From assembly GCA_030043175.1 (NCBI GenBank), contig JASHYD010000056.1, positions 1 to 8,876 of the forward strand: a DNA stretch of 8,876 nt. Reading direction: 5' to 3'. Below the pieces are notes generated by a model, which saw only the letters and a list, made by a program, of their open reading frames with translations, had not been told where the DNA came from and made no database searches. Positions within the stretch are counted from its first letter, which is position 1. Each line of letters starts with the position of its first letter. The position numbers were made by a program, and so were the translations under genes. Positions 1-8,876 of this stretch are shown one piece after another. This DNA is from Xanthobacteraceae bacterium. Its GTDB lineage: Bacteria; Pseudomonadota; Alphaproteobacteria; Rhizobiales; Xanthobacteraceae.

Positions 1-1
1 G

Positions 2-823
2 GCAGCCGACTCGAACCTGGTCGCTGCGGCCGGCGTACTGGATCTCACCACCCGCAATCTGGAGCGCCTCAAGAAGCTCTATGAGACGCGCGCGGTTTCG
101 CAGCACGATCTGGAGCAGGCGGTTTCCGACCAGCAGACCGCAGAAGGTAACCTGCGGGCTGCGCGCGATGCCGTGCGCATCTTCGGCAAGACCGAGGTCG
201 AGGTCGACAAGATCGTGACCGATCGCATGGCCGATCCGCGACTGGTCGTGCCGAGCCCGATTGCGGGCCGCGTTACCGCCCGCAACGCTGCGCCCGGCCT
301 CCTCGTTCAGCCCGGCAACCCGCCAGCGCCGTACTCGGTTGCTGACATTTCAACCATGTGGATGCTCGCCAACGTTGCCGAGAGCGACGTTCCGCTGATC
401 CATCTGGGTCAGGAGGTGAAGGTCTCGGTCCTGGCTTATCCGGGCAAGGTGTTCGAAGGGCATATCACCACGATGGACTCGATGGTTGACCCGAACACCC
501 ATCGGATGCTTGTGCGTTCGACCATCGACGATCCCAATCACGAGCTGCGCTCGAATATGTTCGCGACGTTCACCATCCGCACCGGCGACCCGGAGCGTTC
601 GCTCGCGGTCCCGCTCGACGGCGTCGTGCGTGAAGGTGACGGCACGATGACGGTTTGGGTCACCAGCGATCGGCGGCGCTTCACGCAGCGCACCGTCAAG
701 ATCGGCATGCAAAGAGACGGCTATCGCCAGATCCTTGAAGGCGTCCAGCGGGGCGAACTGGTCGCCACCGACGGGGCGGTGTTCCTGAGCAATATGCTGG
801 TCATTGGGCAGGCCGGCGGGTAA
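2..823 (+). CDS. RND efflux periplasmic adaptor subunit (membrane-fusion protein), 5' end missing
   Basis: This is the last 273 residues of a HlyD/CzcB-type periplasmic adaptor, which joins an inner-membrane RND pump to an outer-membrane channel. The frame is open from base 2, so the signal peptide and first domains lie outside the window; the GTG at 173 is internal. Visible parts in order: the returning arm of an alpha-helical hairpin (about residues 1-60, rich in Leu/Glu/Gln), the second half of the lipoyl-like barrel-sandwich domain (about 75-105, with PSPIAGRV), a beta-barrel domain (about 105-180, with the adaptor-typical DPNTHRMLVR stretch) and a membrane-proximal domain (about 190-273, ending near DGAVFLSNMLV). 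There is no His- or Met-rich metal-binding stretch in the part seen. It ends 83 bp before the RND pump gene on the same strand, as expected for partners of one complex. The family call is firm; the substrate is not readable from this half. Confidence 0.93.
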   Translation, partial: AADSNLVAAAGVLDLTTRNLERLKKLYETRAVSQHDLEQAVSDQQTAEGNLRAARDAVRIFGKTEVEVDKIVTDRMADPRLVVPSPIAGRVTARNAAPGLLVQPGNPPAPYSVADISTMWMLANVAESDVPLIHLGQEVKVSVLAYPGKVFEGHITTMDSMVDPNTHRMLVRSTIDDPNHELRSNMFATFTIRTGDPERSLAVPLDGVVREGDGTMTVWVTSDRRRFTQRTVKIGMQRDGYRQILEGVQRGELVATDGAVFLSNMLVIGQAGG

Positions 824-878
824 GCGCCCCGGTTTTACTTGAGCTGACACGATCGAACCAGCAGCACGCTTCCCGCGC

Positions 879-906
879 GCCAATCAATAAGACCAGGGGC
901 CAATCA
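879..906 (+). repeat. 8-bp direct repeat GCCAATCA just before the RND pump start
   Basis: GCCAATCA occurs at 879-886 and again at 899-906, 20 bp apart (start to start), the second copy directly abutting the GTG start codon. AGGGG at about 895-899 is the likely ribosome binding site and overlaps the second copy by one base. The repeat may be chance. It is noted because it sits in the only gap between the adaptor and pump genes and could affect ribosome access. Confidence 0.35.
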
Positions 907-3900
907 GTGCTAAAGGCAATCATCACGGCGAGCTTGACCCGCCGCCCAATCGTGCTGTTGGGACTGTTCGTGTTCTTCGCCGGCGGCCTGATCGCGTTTA
1001 CCCGACTGAACATTGAGGCTTATCCCAATCCCGCACCGGTGATCCTTGAGATCACCGCCCAGGCTCCCGGCCTGTCTGCCGAGGAGATGGAGCGCTACTA
1101 CACGATTCCGATGGAGGTCGGCCTCTATCCGACCCCAGGCATCGACAACATTAGGTCGACCTCGTTCTATGGTCTGTCGTTCGTCCGGGTCACCTTCAAA
1201 TACGGCATCGACTACTATTTCGCCTATACGCAGACGGGCCTGAGCCTGCAGCAGAACGTCACGCTGCCTGGAAATCAGGTTCCGCAGATCCAGATGTCGA
1301 GCACGGTCGGCGAGATTTATCGCTATCAGGTGGTCGGCCCGCCGCATTTCGGGCTGACCAACCTGCGTACCATTCAAACCTGGATTGCCACGCGCCGGCT
1401 ATTCGCAGTGCCGGGCGTCGTTCAAATCAATCCCTGGGGCGGACCAACCAAGCAATACGACGTGGAGGTCGATCTTCACAAGCTCGACGCCTATAGCATC
1501 ACCATTCCGCAGATCGTCGCCGCGCTGAACAACGCCAACATCAACGTCGGCGGGCGCGAGATCACGATCGGCCAGCAGTCCGTCAACATTCGCGGCATCG
1601 GCCTGCTGGACGGCGGCGGCGATGATGATCTGACCAAGGGCTTTCGGACCCAAGACATCGAAAAGGTGGTGCTGGCCCAGTACAACGGCGTCCCCGTGCA
1701 GGTAAAGGACGTCGCCAAGGTCTCGGTTGGCTACGTTCCCCGGCTCGGCATTGCCGGAAAGGACCATGAGGATGACGTTGTTCTTTCCATCGTCGTCATG
1801 AACCGCACGATGCACACCAACGAGGTATTGCCGCGAGTCAAGGCTGAGGTCGAAAAAATAAATACCGACGGGACACTGCCGCCCGGCGTCAAGCTCGTCC
1901 CCTATTACGATCGAGCCGGCCTCGTCGAGGTCACCACCCACACAGTGCTACACAATCTTGTTTTCGGCTGTCTGCTGGTGTTTTTCATCCAATGGATATT
2001 CCTCGGCGACTTGCGCAGCGCCGTTATTGTTGCCACGAATATTCCGTTCGCGCTGTCTTTTGCGGTCATCATGCTGGTGCTGACCGGCCAGGACGCAAAC
2101 CTGCTGTCGGTCGGCGCGGTCGACTTCGGCATCATCGTCGATTCCGCCGTTATCATGGTGGAGAACATATTCCGCAATTTCCAGGCGCGACCGGAGCAGA
2201 GGGTTGTGGCGCTCCAGCAGCTGTCCGAGGAGCACTGGGGCGAGGACCCGACGCGGGAGCGGCCGGGCTTCATCAGCGTTTGGACGGATCGGCTGCGGTT
2301 GATCCTCCTCAGCGCCTTGCAGGTCGATAACGCAATCTTTTTTTCCGCCGCAATCACGGTCGCCGCCTTCGTGCCCCTGTTCACCATGCAGGGTGTCGAG
2401 GGCCAGATCTTCCGCCCGATGGCGCAGACCTATGGCTATGCGCTCGCCGGCGCCCTGTTCGCGACGTTCACGATCACGCCGGCTCTTTCGTCAGTGCTGC
2501 TTCCACAGCACGTCCACGAAGTTGAGACGATCCTGGTGCGCGTGCTGCGCTTCATTTATGAGCCGGTGCTGCGCTGGTCGCTCGACCACCGCAAGACGAT
2601 GGCCATGATCGGTCTCCTATTCCTCGGCGTGATCGGCCTCATCGCGACGCGGCTCGGCAGCGAGTTCCTGCCGCATCTGGAAGAAGGCAACCTTTGGATC
2701 CGGGTTCAGCTGCCGCCTTCGACCGGGCTGGTGTCAGGAACGCCTGCAACCAAGAAATTGCGCGAGATCCTGCTTCGCCATCCACAAGTCGTCACCGCGA
2801 TCTCCCAGCACGGCCGGCCCGACGACGGCAGCGATGCTTCACCGTTCTCCAATGTCGAGCTGTTTGCGCCGCTCAAGCCGTACGACCAGTGGCCGGCGGG
2901 TCGCACCAAGGAGAAGCTGATCGAGGAGTTGAACAAGGAGTTCACCGACGAAGTGCCCGGCGCCACGTACAACTTTTCGCAATACATCCAGGACAATCTC
3001 GAAGAGGCGCTTTCCGGCGTAAAGGGCGCGAATTCGGTGAAGATCCTCGGCCGAAATCTCGCCATTCAAGAGCAGTTGGCGAGCCAGATAGCGCACGAGA
3101 TGCAACAGGTCCATGGCATCACCGACCTTGGCATCTTCCACGTGCTCGGACAGCCGAACCTCAACATCAAGGTCGACCGCGACAAGGCGGCTCGCTACGG
3201 CCTCAACACCGGCGACGTGAACACCACCATCCAGGCCGCCCTCGGCGGCACGGTGGCGACCACCTTGCTGGAGGGCGACCGCCAGTTCAACGTCACGGTT
3301 CGCCTGCCGCAAGAATATCGCGACAGCCTCGAAGCGGTGGGCGATATCAAAGTCGCCGGAGGCACCGGCGGCAACGCCTACATTCCGCTGCGCGAGCTTG
3401 CCGACATCACGCTCGATACCGGCGCATCCTACATCTATCACGAAAGCAGCTCGCGCTATCTTCCGATCAAGTTTAGCGTTCGTGGTCGCGACCTCGGCGG
3501 CGCAGTCGCCGAGGCGCAGGCGCGGATCGCCAAGAACGTAAAATTGCCGGACGGCTACAGGCTCGTGTGGGCGGGAGAGTTCGAAGATCTACAGAGGGCC
3601 CAGGAAAGACTTGCGATCATCGTTCCAATCAGCCTCGTTCTCATCCTGGTGCTGCTCTATGGCCTGTTCAATTCGCTGCGCGACAGCCTGTTGGCACTCG
3701 CCGGCATTCCGTTCGCAGTCGCCGGCGGCATCGTTGCACTCTACGTCACCGATCTCGATTTTTCGGTATCGGCGGCGATCGGGTTCGTGTCGCTGTTTGG
3801 GGTCTCCGTCATGGACGGCATCCTGATGATCATCTACTATAATCAGGTCCATGCCACCGGCATGAACGCCGTCGATGCGATGTTCCACGCCGCCACGCAG

Positions 3901-4143
3901 CGGATGCGGCCGATGCTGATGACCGCGATGTCGGCCTGCATCGGACTGTTCCCGGCGGCGATCTCCACCGCCATCGGCAGCCAGGTGCAGCGGCCACTTG
4001 CGACGGTCGTGGTCGGCGGACTTTTGATCGGACCGATCATGCTGCTGGTCGTGGTACCGGCGCTGCGCATGATGTTCCTGCGCGAGAGCGGTCCCGAGGC
4101 AACACATCACGCTGGCTCGGAAGGCCTGGCGCCGGCCGAGTGA
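907..4143 (+). CDS. Heavy-metal-type RND efflux permease (CzcA/CusA family)
   Basis: Full-length inner-membrane proton/substrate antiporter of 1078 residues, slightly longer than typical HME-RND pumps. TM1 lies at about 14-31, TM2-TM6 at about 348-530, TM7 at about 565-582 and TM8-TM12 at about 903-1057, with two large periplasmic porter loops between. The HME signature in TM4 reads DFGIIVDSAVIMVEN (406-420). D406, D412 and E419 match in spacing the acidic residues needed for proton transport in CzcA (D402, D408, E415). The family's usual VDGA is VDSA here (S413). The second porter loop contains NFSQYIQDNLEEALSGVKG (689-707), the HME-type counterpart of the CusA region, but has no methionines between about 605 and 730. 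This argues against a CusA-like Cu/Ag methionine relay. The start is GTG at 907 with AGGGG 8 bases upstream, and the N-terminus runs straight into TM1 as usual. Zn/Co/Cd/Ni or another substrate is inference only. Confidence 0.95.
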   Translation: MLKAIITASLTRRPIVLLGLFVFFAGGLIAFTRLNIEAYPNPAPVILEITAQAPGLSAEEMERYYTIPMEVGLYPTPGIDNIRSTSFYGLSFVRVTFKYGIDYYFAYTQTGLSLQQNVTLPGNQVPQIQMSSTVGEIYRYQVVGPPHFGLTNLRTIQTWIATRRLFAVPGVVQINPWGGPTKQYDVEVDLHKLDAYSITIPQIVAALNNANINVGGREITIGQQSVNIRGIGLLDGGGDDDLTKGFRTQDIEKVVLAQYNGVPVQVKDVAKVSVGYVPRLGIAGKDHEDDVVLSIVVMNRTMHTNEVLPRVKAEVEKINTDGTLPPGVKLVPYYDRAGLVEVTTHTVLHNLVFGCLLVFFIQWIFLGDLRSAVIVATNIPFALSFAVIMLVLTGQDANLLSVGAVDFGIIVDSAVIMVENIFRNFQARPEQRVVALQQLSEEHWGEDPTRERPGFISVWTDRLRLILLSALQVDNAIFFSAAITVAAFVPLFTMQGVEGQIFRPMAQTYGYALAGALFATFTITPALSSVLLPQHVHEVETILVRVLRFIYEPVLRWSLDHRKTMAMIGLLFLGVIGLIATRLGSEFLPHLEEGNLWIRVQLPPSTGLVSGTPATKKLREILLRHPQVVTAISQHGRPDDGSDASPFSNVELFAPLKPYDQWPAGRTKEKLIEELNKEFTDEVPGATYNFSQYIQDNLEEALSGVKGANSVKILGRNLAIQEQLASQIAHEMQQVHGITDLGIFHVLGQPNLNIKVDRDKAARYGLNTGDVNTTIQAALGGTVATTLLEGDRQFNVTVRLPQEYRDSLEAVGDIKVAGGTGGNAYIPLRELADITLDTGASYIYHESSSRYLPIKFSVRGRDLGGAVAEAQARIAKNVKLPDGYRLVWAGEFEDLQRAQERLAIIVPISLVLILVLLYGLFNSLRDSLLALAGIPFAVAGGIVALYVTDLDFSVSAAIGFVSLFGVSVMDGILMIIYYNQVHATGMNAVDAMFHAATQRMRPMLMTAMSACIGLFPAAISTAIGSQVQRPLATVVVGGLLIGPIMLLVVVPALRMMFLRESGPEATHHAGSEGLAPAE

Positions 4144-4161
4144 GGCTGGCTGGATTATCAG

Positions 4162-4168
4162 AAGGAGG
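4162..4168 (+). promoter_or_regulatory. Strong ribosome binding site deciding the start at 4173
   Basis: AAGGAGG lies four bases before ATG 4173. The only other in-frame start upstream, GTG 4140 (overlapping the RND stop as GTGA), has no such site and would add 11 residues without hydrophobic character. The ATG is therefore preferred. Confidence 0.8.
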
Positions 4169-4172
4169 CGCG

Positions 4173-5345
4173 ATGCTGACCTTCCTGAAGGGCGAGAAAA
4201 CGATCGATTACCTGCGCTGGATCGCGGCCTTCGTCGCCGTTGTGCTGACTTACGGCGCCGCCGCCTGGATGGTGCTGCGGCCGGCGGGTTGGCAACTCGA
4301 CGCTCCGCTGGTCGAAATCAACCTTCGCGACGTGCCGCAGCTCCCCGCCATCCCGCCGAATGATCGCGCGTCGGAGCCGGCCATTGCGGCGGATCCCACC
4401 GGAGGCAATGCCCAAGGGACAGTGTCCGACTCTGCCGATACTGCTCCGCGCGTCGCCGGCGCCCCTGCAAGCCGCGCCGACGCGGGGAGGGATGCCGATA
4501 CCGACGCCAGGGACGACTCTCCTGATGGGCCCAAGACGGCGGCGTTGGATAAGGCTGAAAATCCCTCCATCACCCAACCGCGGTCGTCTCCTGACACCGC
4601 AGCCAAAGCGTCACCCAAGATGGAAGCACCAGCGGCCGACAGCGGCGGGGGTGGTCGGCCTACCACCATTCCGCCTCGGGTCGTTACGCCGGACACCAGC
4701 GCCACGGCGAGCATCGGCCGCGCGCCCATCGATACCAGCATTACAGTGAACCAGGGGAGGAGCCTGCTCCGCACTGCCAACGGGCGTTCACAGTTGAACG
4801 TCTTGCCGCTCCCTCAGTTGAAGCTCACGCCGCCACTTGCGACACTCAAGGACCGCAACGAACCCTTTGCCAAAAAGCCGCCCCCCGTTGCGGGATTGAC
4901 GTTACAGGCCATCGCACCGACCGCCAACCATGGCCATGCAGACCTTGCGCAGAAGCCGGCGATGGGCGACGACGGCGGGCTTGCGCGCAATGCAATCGGA
5001 GTCGTCATCGCACGTCACACCGTCATGCCGCAAGCGGGCGCGCCCCTGGGCATTCACCCGCTATCTGGCGCGATGTCGATTGCTATGCATCCAGCTGGCG
5101 AGCATGGACCGGCCACGACGGCGACGGGCGTGCCGCTCGCAGCCAATAACGCAAAGCCGAGCGATGCCACCGCCGCTCCCAACCAATGGCGGCCGGGTCA
5201 CGCCGGTCCAATCGCATCGATAGGCGGTCCAGCCGTCAATGGAACGGGCATGAGTCGGCCCGCGTCCAGCACCGGAGCGGTCGGTGCCGCGAAAGCTCCT
5301 ACCGGCGGGCTCAATGGCTCCAGCTTCCGAACAAAATACCCTTAA
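4173..5345 (+). CDS. TonB-like single-TM, Pro/Ala/Gly-rich periplasmic protein of the efflux operon
   Basis: A 390-residue protein of unknown function. Residues 1-14 are a short charged N-terminus and about 15-36 a single membrane segment. These are followed by LDAPLVEINLRDVPQLPAIP, resembling the segment after the TM anchor in TonB proteins (hydrophobic/acidic, then proline-rich). The rest (about 55-390) is low-complexity Ala/Pro/Gly/Thr/Asp sequence without cysteine, expected to be extended in the periplasm. No folded TonB C-terminal domain is recognisable. The C-terminus carries a short motif twice: VNGTGMSRP inside 351-363 and LNGSSFRTKYP at the very end (380-390). It begins 29 bp after the RND stop codon on the same strand and is probably co-transcribed, so a structural or coupling role in the efflux complex is a fair inference. 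Alternatives are a cell-envelope spanning protein or a degenerate TonB. The GTG at 4140 is a possible longer start. Confidence 0.8.
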   Translation: MLTFLKGEKTIDYLRWIAAFVAVVLTYGAAAWMVLRPAGWQLDAPLVEINLRDVPQLPAIPPNDRASEPAIAADPTGGNAQGTVSDSADTAPRVAGAPASRADAGRDADTDARDDSPDGPKTAALDKAENPSITQPRSSPDTAAKASPKMEAPAADSGGGGRPTTIPPRVVTPDTSATASIGRAPIDTSITVNQGRSLLRTANGRSQLNVLPLPQLKLTPPLATLKDRNEPFAKKPPPVAGLTLQAIAPTANHGHADLAQKPAMGDDGGLARNAIGVVIARHTVMPQAGAPLGIHPLSGAMSIAMHPAGEHGPATTATGVPLAANNAKPSDATAAPNQWRPGHAGPIASIGGPAVNGTGMSRPASSTGAVGAAKAPTGGLNGSSFRTKYP

Positions 5346-5676
5346 TTCCGCCACGGCATCTGCCGGCATTGCTGGTTATTGACACTTTTTGTTGCTGCAC
5401 GTCTCTGAGCGGATCGAACTCACTCATTTGCAGTTGCGGTGCGGCCAGATCGATCCCGCTCAATTGGGTATCGATTACGTGGCCAGCCCACCGTGACAGT
5501 GTCGACAAGGCAGCACACATCGGCGCCACCGGTAGAAACTGGCTGTCATTTATCACAGAGCCCACAAGTGCTTTTCACAGTTTACCTGTTTCAGTTATCC
5601 GGCAGAAATACGCCGGGACCTGAGCATGCCGTCGTTTTCCGCAACAGGCAAGACTCGCACAAATGAGCTATGACTC
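5346..5676. other. 331-bp gap between efflux operon and response regulator
   Basis: I see no convincing gene. Open frames on both strands cross it but lack ribosome sites and recognisable protein character. A small inverted repeat CCGGC-N8-GCCGG lies at 5599-5616, about 60 bp before the regulator start, and could be part of its control region. A TTGACA at 5379-5384 has no matching -10 box. No terminator with a T-run follows the 5345 stop. Confidence 0.5.
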
Positions 5677-5678
5677 AT
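5663..5678. repeat. Inverted repeat overlapping the response-regulator start codon
   Basis: ATGAG (5663-5667), six bases, CTCAT (5674-5678): a perfect 5-bp dyad whose right arm includes the first two bases of the ATG at 5677. There is no good Shine-Dalgarno sequence before this start. The dyad could be an operator half-site pair or a small RNA fold hiding the start; it could also be chance. Confidence 0.4.
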
Positions 5679-6282
5679 GGCCGAAGCTCGAAAGAAAATT
5701 CTCTGCATCGAGGATGACCGTGAAACGATCGCGTTGCTGGCGGAGGAGCTCGCCGCCCGCGACTTCCATGTGATCACGGCTTATGATGGCCACGAGGGTT
5801 TTGTATCGATTCTCAGGAACATGCCAGATCTTATTCTGTGCGACATCAACCTCCCGCTGATGTCGGGATTCGAGGTGTTGGAGCACTTGAACGCGTTGAC
5901 GCCTCGCCTCGGCCATATACCATTCCTGTTTCTCACCGCGCTTGCAGATCGTGAAAGCGAATTGCGGGGTCGCCGTCTCGGTGCGGACGACTACGTCACC
6001 AAGCCCATCGATTTCGATATCCTGGAAACAATCATTAAGGCGCGCCTCGCCGGCATTGCGCGCAATGAAAGTTGGCCAAAGCTGGTCATGCTCAACGAGC
6101 GCGAGATCGAGGTGTTGACATGGGTCGCACGCGGCAAGACATCAGGGCAGATAGCGCAGACGCTTAGGCTGACGAAGCGAACGATTGATTTTCATCTCGA
6201 CAATGCTCGCATGAAGCTGGGCGCGGCGACGCGCACCGAGGCCGCCATCAAGGCCGCGATCGGCAAGCTGATCGAGCCTTAA
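5677..6282 (+). CDS. Response regulator with REC and LuxR-type HTH domains
   Basis: A 201-residue cytoplasmic two-component response regulator. The receiver domain spans about 6-125: acidic pair D13/D14, phosphoacceptor D56 (in LCDINLP), switch T87 (LFLTA) and K109 (VTKP). All the canonical residues are present, so it should be phosphorylated normally. A short linker leads to a LuxR/NarL-type helix-turn-helix at about 139-195 (LNEREIEVLTWVARGKTSGQ, then RTIDFHLDNARMKLGAATRT). It therefore probably binds DNA as a dimer and regulates transcription. No histidine kinase gene is in the window, so the partner and target are unknown; the preceding efflux operon is a possible target only by proximity. 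The start at 5677 is chosen because the receiver fold begins at residue 6, although no clear ribosome site precedes it. Confidence 0.93.
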   Translation: MAEARKKILCIEDDRETIALLAEELAARDFHVITAYDGHEGFVSILRNMPDLILCDINLPLMSGFEVLEHLNALTPRLGHIPFLFLTALADRESELRGRRLGADDYVTKPIDFDILETIIKARLAGIARNESWPKLVMLNEREIEVLTWVARGKTSGQIAQTLRLTKRTIDFHLDNARMKLGAATRTEAAIKAAIGKLIEP

Positions 6283-6622
6283 AGCATGGTTTTTCAAACC
6301 AATCCAATATCCTACGACGGCACCGGCGCGGGGTGGTGGATTTTGCTGATGGAGGCATCGCCTCAGCATCCCAGTGCCATGGGCTAGCAAATCACAAATC
6401 TCGACGCCCACAAACGTGCCAGGCCGCGATTGGCTTGCATCAACCCGAGATTTGATTCCTGTCCCTTTACCGATGAGGAGCGAAAAGCCCGTCAACGGCT
6501 CAACGGTCGTGGTGACCTTCGTCTCCTTGTTGGCGAGTGCGCCCGTTCCAAACTAGCCTGGTCAATCCTGGACCACAAAGAAGACGCTGACGGCACTTCG
6601 GACCCCAGCCTTTGAAGTTCTT
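6283..6622. other. 340-bp stretch without a supported gene
   Basis: It follows the response regulator and precedes the 3' end of the minus-strand cysteine-rich gene. Short open frames exist (for example about 6430-6615, +), but they have no ribosome site, no recognisable motif and rely on chance openness. I see no tRNA or clear repeat. It may be decayed sequence at the edge of an accessory region. Confidence 0.5.
6287..6301 (+). terminator. Weak hairpin after the response regulator
   Basis: TGGTTT (6287-6292), loop TTC, AAACCA (6296-6301): a perfect 6-bp stem four bases after the TAA. The stem is AT-rich and no U-run follows, so it is at best a weak transcript 3' structure. Confidence 0.25.
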
Positions 6623-6871
6623 TCATTGGCACCACCTGTATCCGGTACCAGTAAAGTTCAGGGGGCAACTGAAGCTACAGCAATCCTGAGCATAAATGCA
6701 AACGGCACCTCGAGGTCGGCACGTCTGTTGTCGTTGTCTCAGGGATAATTGGGGGCTTCGTTCTGCGTGACTTACTGAGGGATTTGCGAGGCGGACCGAG
6801 GTGGAACTTTCTCCAGGCATCGCCCCGCTGCTAACCAACAGAGCTACAACGAGGGTTGCGGTTCTGTTCAT
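6623..6871 (-). CDS. Small secreted cysteine-rich protein with knottin-like (ICK) spacing
   Basis: An 82-residue pre-protein I cannot assign to a named family. Residues 1-17 look like a Sec signal peptide: MNR, the hydrophobic core TLVVALLVSS, and a plausible cleavage after SGA (A17). Residues 18-50 form a polar pro-region or linker. Residues 51-81 hold all six cysteines (C51, C58, C64, C65, C69, C81) as C-X6-C-X5-CC-X3-C-X11-C, within the classical inhibitor-cystine-knot spacing of small toxins and plant or animal knottins. Two stretches are CRPRGAVCIYAQDCC and TGTGYRWCQ. The ATG at 6871 is preceded by GGAG with 6-base spacing, and an in-frame TGA directly before the ATG blocks any longer start. 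A perfect EcfG-type promoter lies upstream. The stop follows one residue after the last cysteine, typical of knottins. A periplasmic or secreted disulfide-bonded peptide is likely; toxin, inhibitor or host-interaction roles are speculation. Confidence 0.75.
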   Translation of the reverse strand: MNRTATLVVALLVSSGAMPGESSTSVRLANPSVSHAERSPQLSLRQRQQTCRPRGAVCIYAQDCCSFSCPLNFTGTGYRWCQ

Positions 6872-6877
6872 TCAACG

Positions 6878-6882
6878 CTCCA
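6878..6882 (-). promoter_or_regulatory. Ribosome binding site of the cysteine-rich gene
   Basis: On the minus strand TGGAG is followed by six bases (CGTTGA) and ATG at 6871-6869. The final TGA of that spacer is in frame, so this ATG is the only sensible start. Confidence 0.65.
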
Positions 6883-6913
6883 TTTCGAGGTCGTATCGCC
6901 CACATGATCGGCC

Positions 6914-6939
6914 AACGCGGTCAGAAGTGAACGAGTTCC
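6914..6939 (-). promoter_or_regulatory. EcfG (general stress response) type promoter for the cysteine-rich gene
   Basis: Read on the minus strand, GGAAC (6939-6935), 17 bases, CGTT (6917-6914). This equals the published alphaproteobacterial sigma-EcfG consensus GGAAC-N16/17-CGTT. The predicted transcript start, 6-8 bases downstream at about 6906-6908, leaves a leader of about 36 nt before the ATG at 6871. Reading both strands by eye, I found no second perfect match in the window. Confidence 0.6.
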
Positions 6940-7094
6940 GCCCCAAGGGGCCGCCTCTCCTCGACCCCGGATCGTCGAGCACAACCGTGATTGGAGAGCA
7001 GCCGATAAAGGAGGCTGCGATGTCGCCATTCCTGCCGCCCTGCGACAGGCGATAATAGGTAATTTCTTGAAACCGCGAGTCGCTCCTGATAGCG

Positions 7095-7358
7095 AGATTG
7101 AAGATATCGTGTCCCTAGCAGTTCTCGACATGACCACAACGCGATATCAATCGGGGGAACGACGACAGCGGCCGGATTTTAAAGAACGGGGAGGGCTCGG
7201 TGCGTGCGGTGCTCTACGGCGCCGGTCACCTCATCCTCACCACGCCGCTCAAAGGCTGCACCGCCCTGAAGGGTTGGGCGACGCGGATCGCCAAGCGGGC
7301 TGGGCTGAAGAAAGCCGGCGGTGACGCTGGCCCGCAACTCGCTGTCATCATGCATCGG
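7095..7358 (+). pseudogene. IS110-family transposase remnant, C-terminal part, frameshifted
   Basis: Pieces of the C-terminal (transposase_20-type) domain of an IS110/IS1111 recombinase are readable in different frames. LDMTTTRYQSGE (7127-7162, frame of 7067) resembles the family's LGLTxxRYQSGE. After a frame change, SGRILKNGEGSVRAVLYGAG begins at 7167. The same frame continues with LKGCTALKGWATRIAKRAGL, KKA and, after a locally scrambled stretch, LAVIMHR ending at 7358. Another frame reads VTLARN at 7321, where the family has KVALARKLAVIMHRM, so at least two indels are present. No intact start, catalytic N-terminal DEDD domain or stop remains. The open frame before 7095 may include more decayed transposase, but I cannot align it. 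This is dead sequence and evidence of past mobile-element activity. Confidence 0.7.
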
Positions 7359-7499
7359 TGCTCGTAACCGGCGCAGAAGGACCTTCTCGAAACTGAATCG
7401 AGCCGGCGCAGCATTCTGCGTGGCTTTGGCTTGAAGGTCGGCAAGACGACCCCGGTGGGGTTCGCGGGGCGTATCAGAGAACTCGTTGGAGGACATCCA
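7359..7499 (+). pseudogene. IS110-family transposase remnant, N-terminal/middle part, out of order
   Basis: From 7377 the frame reads KDLLETESSRRSILRGFGLK, then VGKTTPVGFAGRIRELVGGH, ending at HP (7499). This resembles the segment following the DEDD catalytic domain in IS110/IS1111 transposases (the family's ARKxLLxxxxxxExxIRGxLRGFGLKVG and RIRELVxGHP). In an intact transposase it precedes the C-terminal domain by roughly 100 residues, but here it follows it on the same strand, directly after MHR. No similarity is visible beyond 7499. Either two neighbouring copies were deleted into each other, or a circular/tandem intermediate was permuted. Confidence 0.6.
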
Positions 7500-7777
7500 A
7501 GTGGTCAGGAACCAGCCTTCCCGAAGCGAGGTCCCGACGCCGGGACGATAAATCTTGTCAGGCGCAAAAATGGCGGATGGCACAGACCACACGCAACGTT
7601 AGATTGGCCGACCTATCCTCTTCAAACCCCATCACGTGGCGGTTTCGCGCCGACCCCGAACAGAATCAGTACGTGAGGAACTTAAAAACCCTGGCCACCT
7701 GGTGGAAAGGAGTCCTCGCTGCACGTGAGTACTTGACAACCCACGGCCCGTTACACAAGCTAGGTGCCGAGTTCGAG
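7500..7777. other. Gap before the cytochrome c gene
   Basis: A frame is open from 7577 into the cytochrome c, but its N-terminal 67 residues would lie before a signal peptide and look non-coding. AAAGGAG at 7706-7712 has a GTG at 7725, but that frame stops after three codons. TTGACA at 7733-7738 lacks a fitting -10 box at 16-18 bp. Confidence 0.45.
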
Positions 7778-8155
7778 ATGGGAACGCACAATCGCCCGAT
7801 AATTGTCTTGTTCATTTCTTTCATCGCGATTCTTACAGCCGCCGCAAACGACAAAGAGCCAACCGATCGCGGTAACGCTGATGCCGGCCGTGAGTTGGCT
7901 CTAGAAGCGTGTACCGGTTGTCACGTTGTCTCAGATGCCCAGCGGTTTTCGCCACTTCTGAAAGGTGCACCGAGCTTTCGGGAAATCGCCAACCGGCCGA
8001 ACGTCTCTGCCGCATCGTTGCGCCGTACGATCGCCGCGCTGCCGCAAGTGCCGCGGAACGGCCGCATGGCGAACCCGCTGCTTACCGACCACCAACTCGT
8101 CGATGTCGCCGCTTATATCATGACCTTGCGGGAGGATCGCACAAAACAACCTTGA
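7778..8155 (+). CDS. Small secreted single-haem cytochrome c
   Basis: A 125-residue class I-like c-type cytochrome acting as a periplasmic electron carrier. Residues 1-23 form a signal peptide (IIVLFISFIAILTAAA, cleavage near A23). The haem site is CTGCH at 45-49: C45 and C48 bind haem covalently and H49 is the proximal ligand. The probable distal ligand is M98 in NGRMANPLLTDHQLVDVAAY, typical of this family, followed by the C-terminal helix (about 104-117). A longer reading from 7577 would put 67 residues before the signal peptide, so ATG 7778 is chosen; its ribosome site is weak (GCCGAG). The redox partner is unknown. The gene converges with a small membrane-protein gene 50 bp downstream and stands alone on its strand, so no pathway can be read from context. 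Confidence 0.88.
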   Translation: MGTHNRPIIVLFISFIAILTAAANDKEPTDRGNADAGRELALEACTGCHVVSDAQRFSPLLKGAPSFREIANRPNVSAASLRRTIAALPQVPRNGRMANPLLTDHQLVDVAAYIMTLREDRTKQP

Positions 8156-8161
8156 CCAATA

Positions 8162-8178
8162 GCGCCAGCTCCAGGCGC
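8162..8178. terminator. Possible hairpin between convergent genes
   Basis: GCGCC (8162-8166), seven bases, GGCGC (8174-8178), starting six bases after the cytochrome c stop and lying between two convergent genes. The stem is GC-rich but short and has no T-run, so termination activity is uncertain. Confidence 0.25.
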
Positions 8179-8205
8179 CCCAGCGCGAGGCCGCGTATTC
8201 GCCCG

Positions 8206-8367
8206 CTACTTCGGCGTCGGTGACTGACTGGCTCCTGGGGCCGCAGCGCTTGTATCATGATGGACCAGCACGTTGATGCCCATGGCGCCAACGATTAAAA
8301 GCGCAATCCCGACGCTGGCGATCCACATCATACGCATTTCGCGCTTGTCGTCATTATTGTCCGGCAT
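8206..8367 (-). CDS. Small single-TM membrane protein of unknown function
   Basis: A 53-residue protein: charged N-terminus MPDNNDDKREMRMM, one membrane segment at about 14-34 (WIASVGIALLIVGAMGINVL), then the short polar tail VHHDTSAAAPGASQSPTPK. The positive/acidic N-terminus followed by the TM suggests an inner-membrane anchor with the tail in the periplasm, but the topology is not certain. The start at 8367 is chosen because the protein-like part begins there; AAGG lies 8 bases upstream. In-frame ATGs at 8400 and 8436 would add 11-23 residues without a ribosome site. It converges with the cytochrome c gene. I do not recognise a family, and function cannot be inferred. Confidence 0.6.
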   Translation of the reverse strand: MPDNNDDKREMRMMWIASVGIALLIVGAMGINVLVHHDTSAAAPGASQSPTPK

Positions 8368-8449
8368 GGCACACGCCTTGTCTTGATGCGTGGGCGACAT
8401 GATTGCTGAACGGGCGCGGGCTGTGAACTGTGACAATTACAGGCGATCC

Positions 8450-8468
8450 TGGACCGGTCCGCGGTCCA
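8450..8468. repeat. Dyad upstream of the small membrane-protein gene
   Basis: TGGACC (8450-8455), seven bases, GGTCCA (8463-8468); the left arm also forms the perfect palindrome GGACCGGTCC at 8451-8460. It is 80-100 bp upstream of the minus-strand start at 8367, a reasonable operator distance, but there is no direct evidence of function. Confidence 0.35.
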
Positions 8469-8770
8469 CGCTGTGAGCGATAACCGAGTAGACCGAAGCT
8501 CAACGACATCGGCTCTTTAAACGGCCGCTGTCCAAGCTGCCCGCCGATTGCGCACGCAGTTTTGACGAATCCAAGAAATGGCAAATCGGGCCTGCAACAA
8601 CTAGCGCATGTTTCCCCTAACGCCACAATTGAGCGACGCAAAGTGCCTGATTTTCCTTGAGTCGAGGCTTGATTTTCTCAAAAACGTAGGGACAGACATT
8701 TTTATGTTTTTATTTTATTTGTGATTGCCATTTGCTGATTCTCATGTTGGTTTTGACAGGGACAGGTTTC

Positions 8771-8777
8771 GGAGGAG
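8771..8777 (+). promoter_or_regulatory. Ribosome binding site of the transposase
   Basis: GGAGGAG ends three bases before ATG 8781, giving a strong translation start and supporting this ATG. Confidence 0.65.
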
Positions 8778-8780
8778 ACC

Positions 8781-8876
8781 ATGTTCCTGCGAGTGGTCCG
8801 CGCGGCGGGCGGCAAGGGCATCAAGCACGAATACGTGCGGGTGGTCGAAGCCTATTGGCAGCGCGGCAAGACGCGC
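8781..8876 (+). CDS. IS1634-type (IS4-group) transposase, N-terminal 32 residues only
   Basis: The visible part reads MFLRVVRAAGGKGIKHEYVR, then VVEAYWQRGKTR, and continues past the window edge. An opening MFLRxxx...K..Y..VVE.YW..GKTR, a short beta-rich segment reading like 'represents one's own voice again with a given name', is characteristic of IS1634-family transposases as I remember them; the catalytic DDE core would lie far downstream. The start is well defined by GGAGGAG just upstream. Whether the rest is intact is unknown. The family assignment rests on 32 residues and is recognition, not a search. Confidence 0.6.
   Translation, partial: MFLRVVRAAGGKGIKHEYVRVVEAYWQRGKTR

Follow-up and report, generated by a model that had tools for sequence, protein, structure and literature searches.

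A knottin-like peptide gene, probably for an exported miniprotein, in an accessory locus of a Xanthobacteraceae bacterium

Knottins are known mainly as toxins and inhibitors of animals and plants. Does an alphaproteobacterium encode one of its own, and if so, where does it come from and on what would it act? This question is raised by a stretch of 8,876 nucleotides from Xanthobacteraceae bacterium (assembly GCA_030043175.1, contig JASHYD010000056.1, positions 1 to 8,876; hereafter the window), in which a sequence-only reading had pointed to a small secreted peptide, here called P0001, with the six-cysteine spacing of the inhibitor cystine knot (ICK). On balance, we favour the explanation that P0001 is the precursor of an exported ICK miniprotein acting outside the cytoplasm. 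The parts of the gene are as follows.

6623..6871, minus strand: gene of the 82-residue knottin-like precursor P0001 (ATG at 6871, TGA at 6623-6625; two relatives at 84-85% identity)
6815..6871, minus strand: signal-peptide-like segment, residues 1-19 (cleavage site by inspection)
6737..6814, minus strand: polar variable spacer or pro-region, residues 20-45 of P0001 (three-sequence alignment)
6626..6736, minus strand: six-cysteine core, residues 46-82 (alignment, profile test, and models)
6878..6881, minus strand: Shine-Dalgarno-like GGAG, six bases 5' of the ATG (sequence reading)

P0001 reads MNRTATLVVALLVSSGAMPGESS..., followed by a polar stretch and then CRPRGAVCIYAQDCCSFSCPLNFTGTGYRWCQ. 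Its cysteines are residues 51, 58, 64, 65, 69, and 81, no others occur, and a final Gln closes the protein; the frame C-X6-C-X5-CC-X3-C-X11-C is an ICK spacing. The coordinates, the spacing, and the absence of further cysteines given by the sequence-only reading were exact on the 82-residue open reading frame (ORF) 6871-6623 (minus strand). The DNA form of this frame, with the glycine of loop 1 included, was found once in the window and in none of 200 dinucleotide shuffles. The gene had also been credited with its own ribosome site and promoter. The former stood, as the GGAG lies six bases before the ATG; the latter did not, with no sigma-70 consensus site at 6250-7300 (0.5 expected from shuffles) in a scan that is weakly informative for such an organism. 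The GC content at third codon positions (GC3) of the peptide gene was 0.51 and showed no coding bias, against 0.70-0.80 for the adaptor, pump, 390-residue hypothetical protein, and response-regulator genes of the window. An 89-residue open frame at 6868-7137 (minus strand) has a stop that overlaps the peptide start codon (ATGA); it had neither a Pfam match nor coding-like GC3 and is probably not a gene.

Relatives were sought among approximately 5.8 billion protein clusters, with P0001 alone and then the three-member alignment as the queries. These searches require shared exact 5-residue words, and distant relatives would escape them; 5, 99, and 156 candidates were scored. Both queries gave the identical pair, P0002 and P0003, which are 84-85% identical to P0001 and are each represented by one metagenome sequence on a short contig. 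All six cysteines and all spacings of the core were kept in both, and the sole length difference among the three proteins was one whole codon in the spacer. Variable columns numbered 2 of 18 in the signal-like segment, 15 of 28 in the spacer (columns 19-46), and 1 of 37 in the core (core against 17 of 46 elsewhere; Fisher p = 1e-4). The expectation that homologs would keep the six cysteines while the linkers vary was thus borne out, on two relatives. Because these relatives keep the frame, differ by a whole codon, and show constraint specific to each region, we count P0001 as a gene, almost certainly a real one. As far as sequence can tell, such conservation is what one would expect of an exported precursor in which the core does the work and the linker is under loose constraint. 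When the alignment was enlarged, the sole addition was P0004 (E = 1.3). This sequence is a piece of a tandem ICK-like protein and matched the spider-toxin family PF08116 at 28.6 bits, above the cut-off of 25. NCBIfam gave one weak N-terminal match, to P0002 only (PtrA, 16.4 bits against 31), and PHROGs gave no match for P0001.

Export of P0001 is likely, judging from sequence, since the N-terminus is hydrophobic and the two relatives carry an AXA-type site. The maximum 10-residue Kyte-Doolittle mean of P0001 was 2.62, a value reached by 11 of 5000 whole-protein shuffles, and the corresponding counts were 9 of 5000 for P0002 and 101 of 5000 for P0003. The cleavage motif is Ala-Met-Ala|Gly in P0002 and P0003, and Ala-Met-Pro|Gly in P0001. 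With the spacer that follows, this agrees with the signal peptide and polar spacer predicted at the outset.

The core probably adopts the ICK fold, judging from its sequence and from models. It touched five Pfam models of venom toxins with an ICK-type fold, four of them at E < 0.05 and all below the cut-off. In the shuffle control, two of nine Cys-preserving shuffles touched one venom model each (E 0.035 and 0.14). The Conotoxin model PF02950 gave 22.8 bits for P0001, 23.4 for P0002, and 19.1 for P0003, under its cut-off of 25.1, and PF06357 gave 17.3 bits for P0001, under its cut-off of 22. When PF02950 was used on genomes, one weak match below the cut-off was obtained among four searched; among 14 control genomes, Bacillus subtilis also had a below-cut-off match. 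The best sequence match among solved structures was spider atracotoxin-Hvi (E 0.021 with the single sequence, 0.0067 with the profile). The core model showed a short strand and a C-terminal hairpin (strands 26-28 and 34-36) at a mean predicted local distance difference test (pLDDT) score of 64.8, which is low confidence. At E <= 10, Foldseek returned three PDB matches, each of them weak: both models hit a remipede double-ICK toxin, and the remaining match was the knottin leginsulin. The structure models are of low confidence (pLDDT 53 and 65), and the resemblance of the core to spider toxins, lying below the Pfam cut-offs, is no proof of kinship.

A misleading match was also met. In a phylum sample, 59 of 398 genomes gave a match at E <= 0.001. 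All 15 loci fetched carried the motif RG..C..SQ.GC...C..C.TGT, an RlmN-like radical SAM motif, and nearly all other matches covered the identical query residues. We rejected the core as a radical-SAM (RlmN-like) fragment: 23 residues align, at up to 30 bits, and the third cluster cysteine (C-x3-C-x2-C) is Asn. This match was judged to be a coincidence, cautioning that Cys-rich queries inflate scores. With phmmer on the loci gathered, the real core scored at best 19.3, on an RlmN-like locus, barely above the best of 100 shuffles (17.8).

More telling similarity was found within bacteria. The scorpion-calcine profile PF08099 was applied to a sample of 188 genomes belonging to the same phylum as a Sorangium genome, the Myxococcota. 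Four genomes had weak matches, all below the cut-off, and ICK-like modules were present at three of these four loci. The first (L245, ORF 859-2730, plus strand) encodes a 623-residue lipoprotein-like protein with at least 14 such modules, 13 of which have C-X6-C-X5-CC-X3-C. The second (L246, ORF 1492-2652, minus strand) encodes a 386-residue secreted-looking protein with a metalloprotease-like HEVGH motif and one C-terminal module, as if the knottin served as a targeting or inhibitory tail. The third (L248, ORF 1468-3024, minus strand), whose frame exceeds the locus end, encodes a protein, VWA-like in appearance and at least 518 residues long, with two C-terminal modules. The fourth PF08099 locus (L247) had no ICK-like module. 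The spacing C-X6-C-X5-CC-X3-C was present in 16 of the 17 modules (14 from L245, one from L246, and two from L248), a count to be read with the search expression in mind, which preselects loop lengths.

A profile was built from these 16 modules, with the one having X4 and the window protein left out. The cores of P0001 and P0002 scored 21.8 and 19.5 bits, against a mean of 4.2 and a best of 25.3 for Cys-preserving shuffles; the score was reached by 4 of 2000 shuffles for the P0001 core and 9 of 2000 for the P0002 core. Therefore, the inter-cysteine residues of the core, and not just the cysteines, fit the bacterial ICK-like module. P0001 follows the frame C-X3-G-X2-C-X5-CC-X3-C and shares further residue preferences with the Myxococcota modules. 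Several of the venom Pfam models that it touches also match pieces of the three proteins from that phylum. On 49,748 frames of other loci, the best profile score was 16.0, a 9-residue antisense chance match in L229. This locus, the one PF08099 match in a sample of 251 Chloroflexota genomes (a 12-residue piece), lies antisense to a 765-residue frame and was rejected. P0001 is best read as an exported bacterial ICK peptide that stands alone, encoded at a rare accessory locus of an alphaproteobacterium.

The sequence-only reading had known of no described system matching this peptide. That does not hold: besides the Myxococcota modules with identical C1-C5 spacing, two bacterial ICK peptides, KrICK of Ktedonobacter racemifer and HoHP-ICKD of Haliangium ochraceum, were reported in 2013 after discovery with scorpion ICK queries (PMC3694633). 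As described there, KrICK is bacterial and consists of a signal peptide and a single ICK core, the architecture predicted for P0001. P0001 differs in coming from an alphaproteobacterium and in carrying a spacer that separates signal from core; the comparison with both peptides is by description only. KrICK was not recovered in the Chloroflexota sample with PF08099. The modules of L245, L246, and L248 share with P0001 the C1-C5 spacing, the loop-1 glycine (15 of 16), and an acidic residue before CC (13 of 16), but they occur in tandem or at the C-terminus within large proteins and have a last loop of 4-10 residues, whereas P0001 is one lone module whose last loop has 11. The spider and cone-snail ICK toxins (PF06357, PF02950, PF17557, PF08091, and PF08087) resemble it in cysteine frame and precursor layout; however, P0001 is below every curated cut-off, and the solved-structure matches align just the first two thirds of the core. 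Plant and insect knottin-type antifungal peptides are secreted and cationic and have CC at Cys3-Cys4. PF11410 was absent among the matches of P0001-P0003 at E <= 10, a range in which HMMER filters drop most matches above approximately 0.1. Defensins have a fold different from ICK; bacterial ones have been reported (PMC8819291). The Hymenoptera-like, insect-like antimicrobial peptide of Streptomyces clavuligerus pSCL4 is likewise a rare small exported bacterial peptide resembling eukaryotic ones, but an ICK is not established for it in the part of PMC6406012 available, and it is likened to P0001 by description only. Among the open-licence PubMed Central titles and abstract openings listed, no report of an alphaproteobacterial ICK peptide was seen. 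As far as we have seen, the alphaproteobacterial stand-alone ICK-like peptide is new, and the bacterial ICK kind is already known and little studied.

How might such a precursor work? The N-terminal signal would direct Sec export and be cut by signal peptidase; in P0001, with Pro at the Ala-Met-Pro|Gly site, cleavage after Ala17 is possible. Once in the oxidising periplasm, the peptide would form three disulfides from its six cysteines, most likely in the ICK order 1-4, 2-5, 3-6, an order suggested by the spacing, the similarity to bacterial ICK-like modules, and the weak model matches. The Escherichia coli periplasm is a published production route for disulfide-rich venom peptides (PMC3646780). 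The fast-changing spacer could be a linker or pro-region, perhaps with optional trimming at a conserved Arg (...QR|QQTC), which is speculative. The disulfide-braced core would then bind one conserved partner, in the periplasm or outside the cell. The frozen core suggests that the target is a single, constant one; an arms-race toxin would suit this less well than an inhibitor or a channel ligand. In view of the rarity of the gene and its accessory, self-contained nature, the role that we favour, tentatively, is that of an outward-acting antagonist or inhibitor directed at neighbouring organisms (a microbial competitor, a protist, an invertebrate, or a root). The likelihoods that we attach to this role, to a role in the cell's own envelope, to a eukaryotic origin, and to metal binding overlap in part.

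A role at home is less likely: P0001 may be a periplasmic or surface inhibitor or regulator of an enzyme of its own cell, or it may be a structural knottin that antagonises nothing outside. A constant partner within the cell would also suit the almost frozen core, and the Myxococcota modules sit in surface- or protease-like proteins; however, the rare and patchy occurrence of the gene (0 of 265 genomes of a genus and 0 of 397 of an order sample) is unlike that of a housekeeping regulator. The most far-reaching form of the outward role is doubtful at present: a Gram-negative alphaproteobacterium would secrete a stand-alone ICK effector dedicated to use against other organisms, derived from a bacterial ICK module and not borrowed from an animal. 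If it is true, venom-like knottins are also a bacterial weapon class, left by annotation as hypothetical proteins. P0001 and the Myxococcota modules of the C1-C5 frame suggest that bacteria own an ICK repertoire, and convergence versus gene transfer between bacteria and animals becomes a testable question. The P0001 core would also offer a natural scaffold, bacterial in origin, that is very small and probably stable.

It is unlikely that the gene was captured from a eukaryote (an arthropod, a plant, or a fungus) as an animal-type ICK toxin or antimicrobial peptide. The atracotoxin-Hvi match, the Conotoxin score near its cut-off, the low GC3, and the signal-spacer-mature layout, as in venom precursors, speak for capture, as does the published insect-like peptide in Streptomyces (PMC6406012, as above). 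Nevertheless, every such match is weak or below the cut-off, and the unrelated radical-SAM-like match outscores the spider match. Moreover, with eukaryotic collections outside our searches, the Myxococcota frame and the shared Pfam models make a bacterial source sufficient. By family, P0001 belongs to the bacterial ICK kind and is not evidently a captured animal toxin gene.

An exported Cys-rich metal binder aiding the Cus/HlyD-type efflux genes at 2-4143 is quite improbable. The window does hold an HlyD/CusB-like adaptor and an AcrB-family pump, and the peptide has six cysteines; however, the efflux genes are on the opposite strand and approximately 2.5 kb away, with a hypothetical protein and the response regulator intervening, insertion sequence (IS) remains mark an accessory stretch, and ICK-module residues unneeded for metal binding (the loop-1 Gly and the Asp before CC) are kept. 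Finally, it is hardly credible that this frame is open by chance or that the DNA is a non-coding element conserved on other grounds: the GC3 and the lack of a promoter consensus would suit such a reading, but not two relatives that keep the frame, a whole-codon indel, and constraint that matches signal, spacer, and core.

To the left of the peptide gene lie the adaptor, the pump, the 390-residue protein, and the response regulator; to the right lie IS remains and a small cytochrome c.

7144..7665, no strand assigned: IS110-type remains flanking the peptide gene (matches to plasmid stretches)

Three pieces of this segment matched, at 76-80% identity, part of a Bradyrhizobium plasmid close to a gene annotated as an IS110 transposase, in line with the accessory stretch beside IS remains proposed by the sequence-only reading. 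An IS110 family transposase was annotated under the match in 3 of the 20 plasmid records listed, all from Ensifer adhaerens and matching 7131-7337. The response regulator (5677-6282) shares 81% identity with one from a Hyphomicrobiales metagenome-assembled genome (MAG; L133), and the pump gene has 77% DNA identity over 3.2 kb with Xanthobacteraceae MAG L134. These matches suggest an alphaproteobacterial window, from the order Hyphomicrobiales.

The peptide itself was not found elsewhere in these searches. The genome contigs of 84,980 species gave 123 pattern-matching stretches and viral contigs gave 39, none of them relatives; plasmids lacked the peptide, and phages gave two records of one phage (E = 5, 20 residues), judged to be chance. 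It was not found in 79 loci sharing the response regulator (up to approximately 20 kb each), where peptide-profile matches outside the window reached at most 14.6 bits (L125 and L126, 28-residue frames). Two Arg/Ser-rich frames from these loci (L132 and L141), picked up by a loose cysteine expression, were rejected by eye. In the family of the L133 genome, 22 of 391 genomes matched at E <= 0.01; 20 loci were fetched, none of the 19 alignments displayed kept the six cysteines, and several of the loci hold stops. The peptide was absent from the 265 genomes of the genus of a Bradyrhizobium MAG (L122), from the single genome of the genus of L133, and from the order sample, although empty samples without a known positive genome show nothing by themselves. 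With GC3 of 0.51, IS remains, and absence from sampled relatives, we regard the locus as accessory; the peptide gene is rare and accessory.

In a six-Cys scan of viral contigs, 44 frames were open among the 122 matches listed (120 rows), and no small exported six-Cys protein was seen by eye, the complete ORF being inspected for frames under 160 residues. A further locus (L202) seemed to have a signal and a Cys pair and was actually an inner piece of a 320-residue ORF. Five IMG/VR contigs (L002, L059, L084, L098, and L106) carry frames of 489-1459 residues with the six-Cys pattern and repeated-looking CG.CG..C modules, possibly cellular-like Cys-repeat proteins on viral contigs.

Two further features of the window were observed. 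Just 3' of the RND pump gene, 4173-5342 (plus strand) encodes the 390-residue protein, which has a hydrophobic segment at its N-terminus, ends in a long tail rich in Pro, Ala, and Thr, and had no Pfam match at E <= 0.01. The segment 8437-8770 is 49% GC and is followed, up to the window end at 8876, by the start of a frame that had no Pfam match on the 32 residues available and that resembles an IS transposase.
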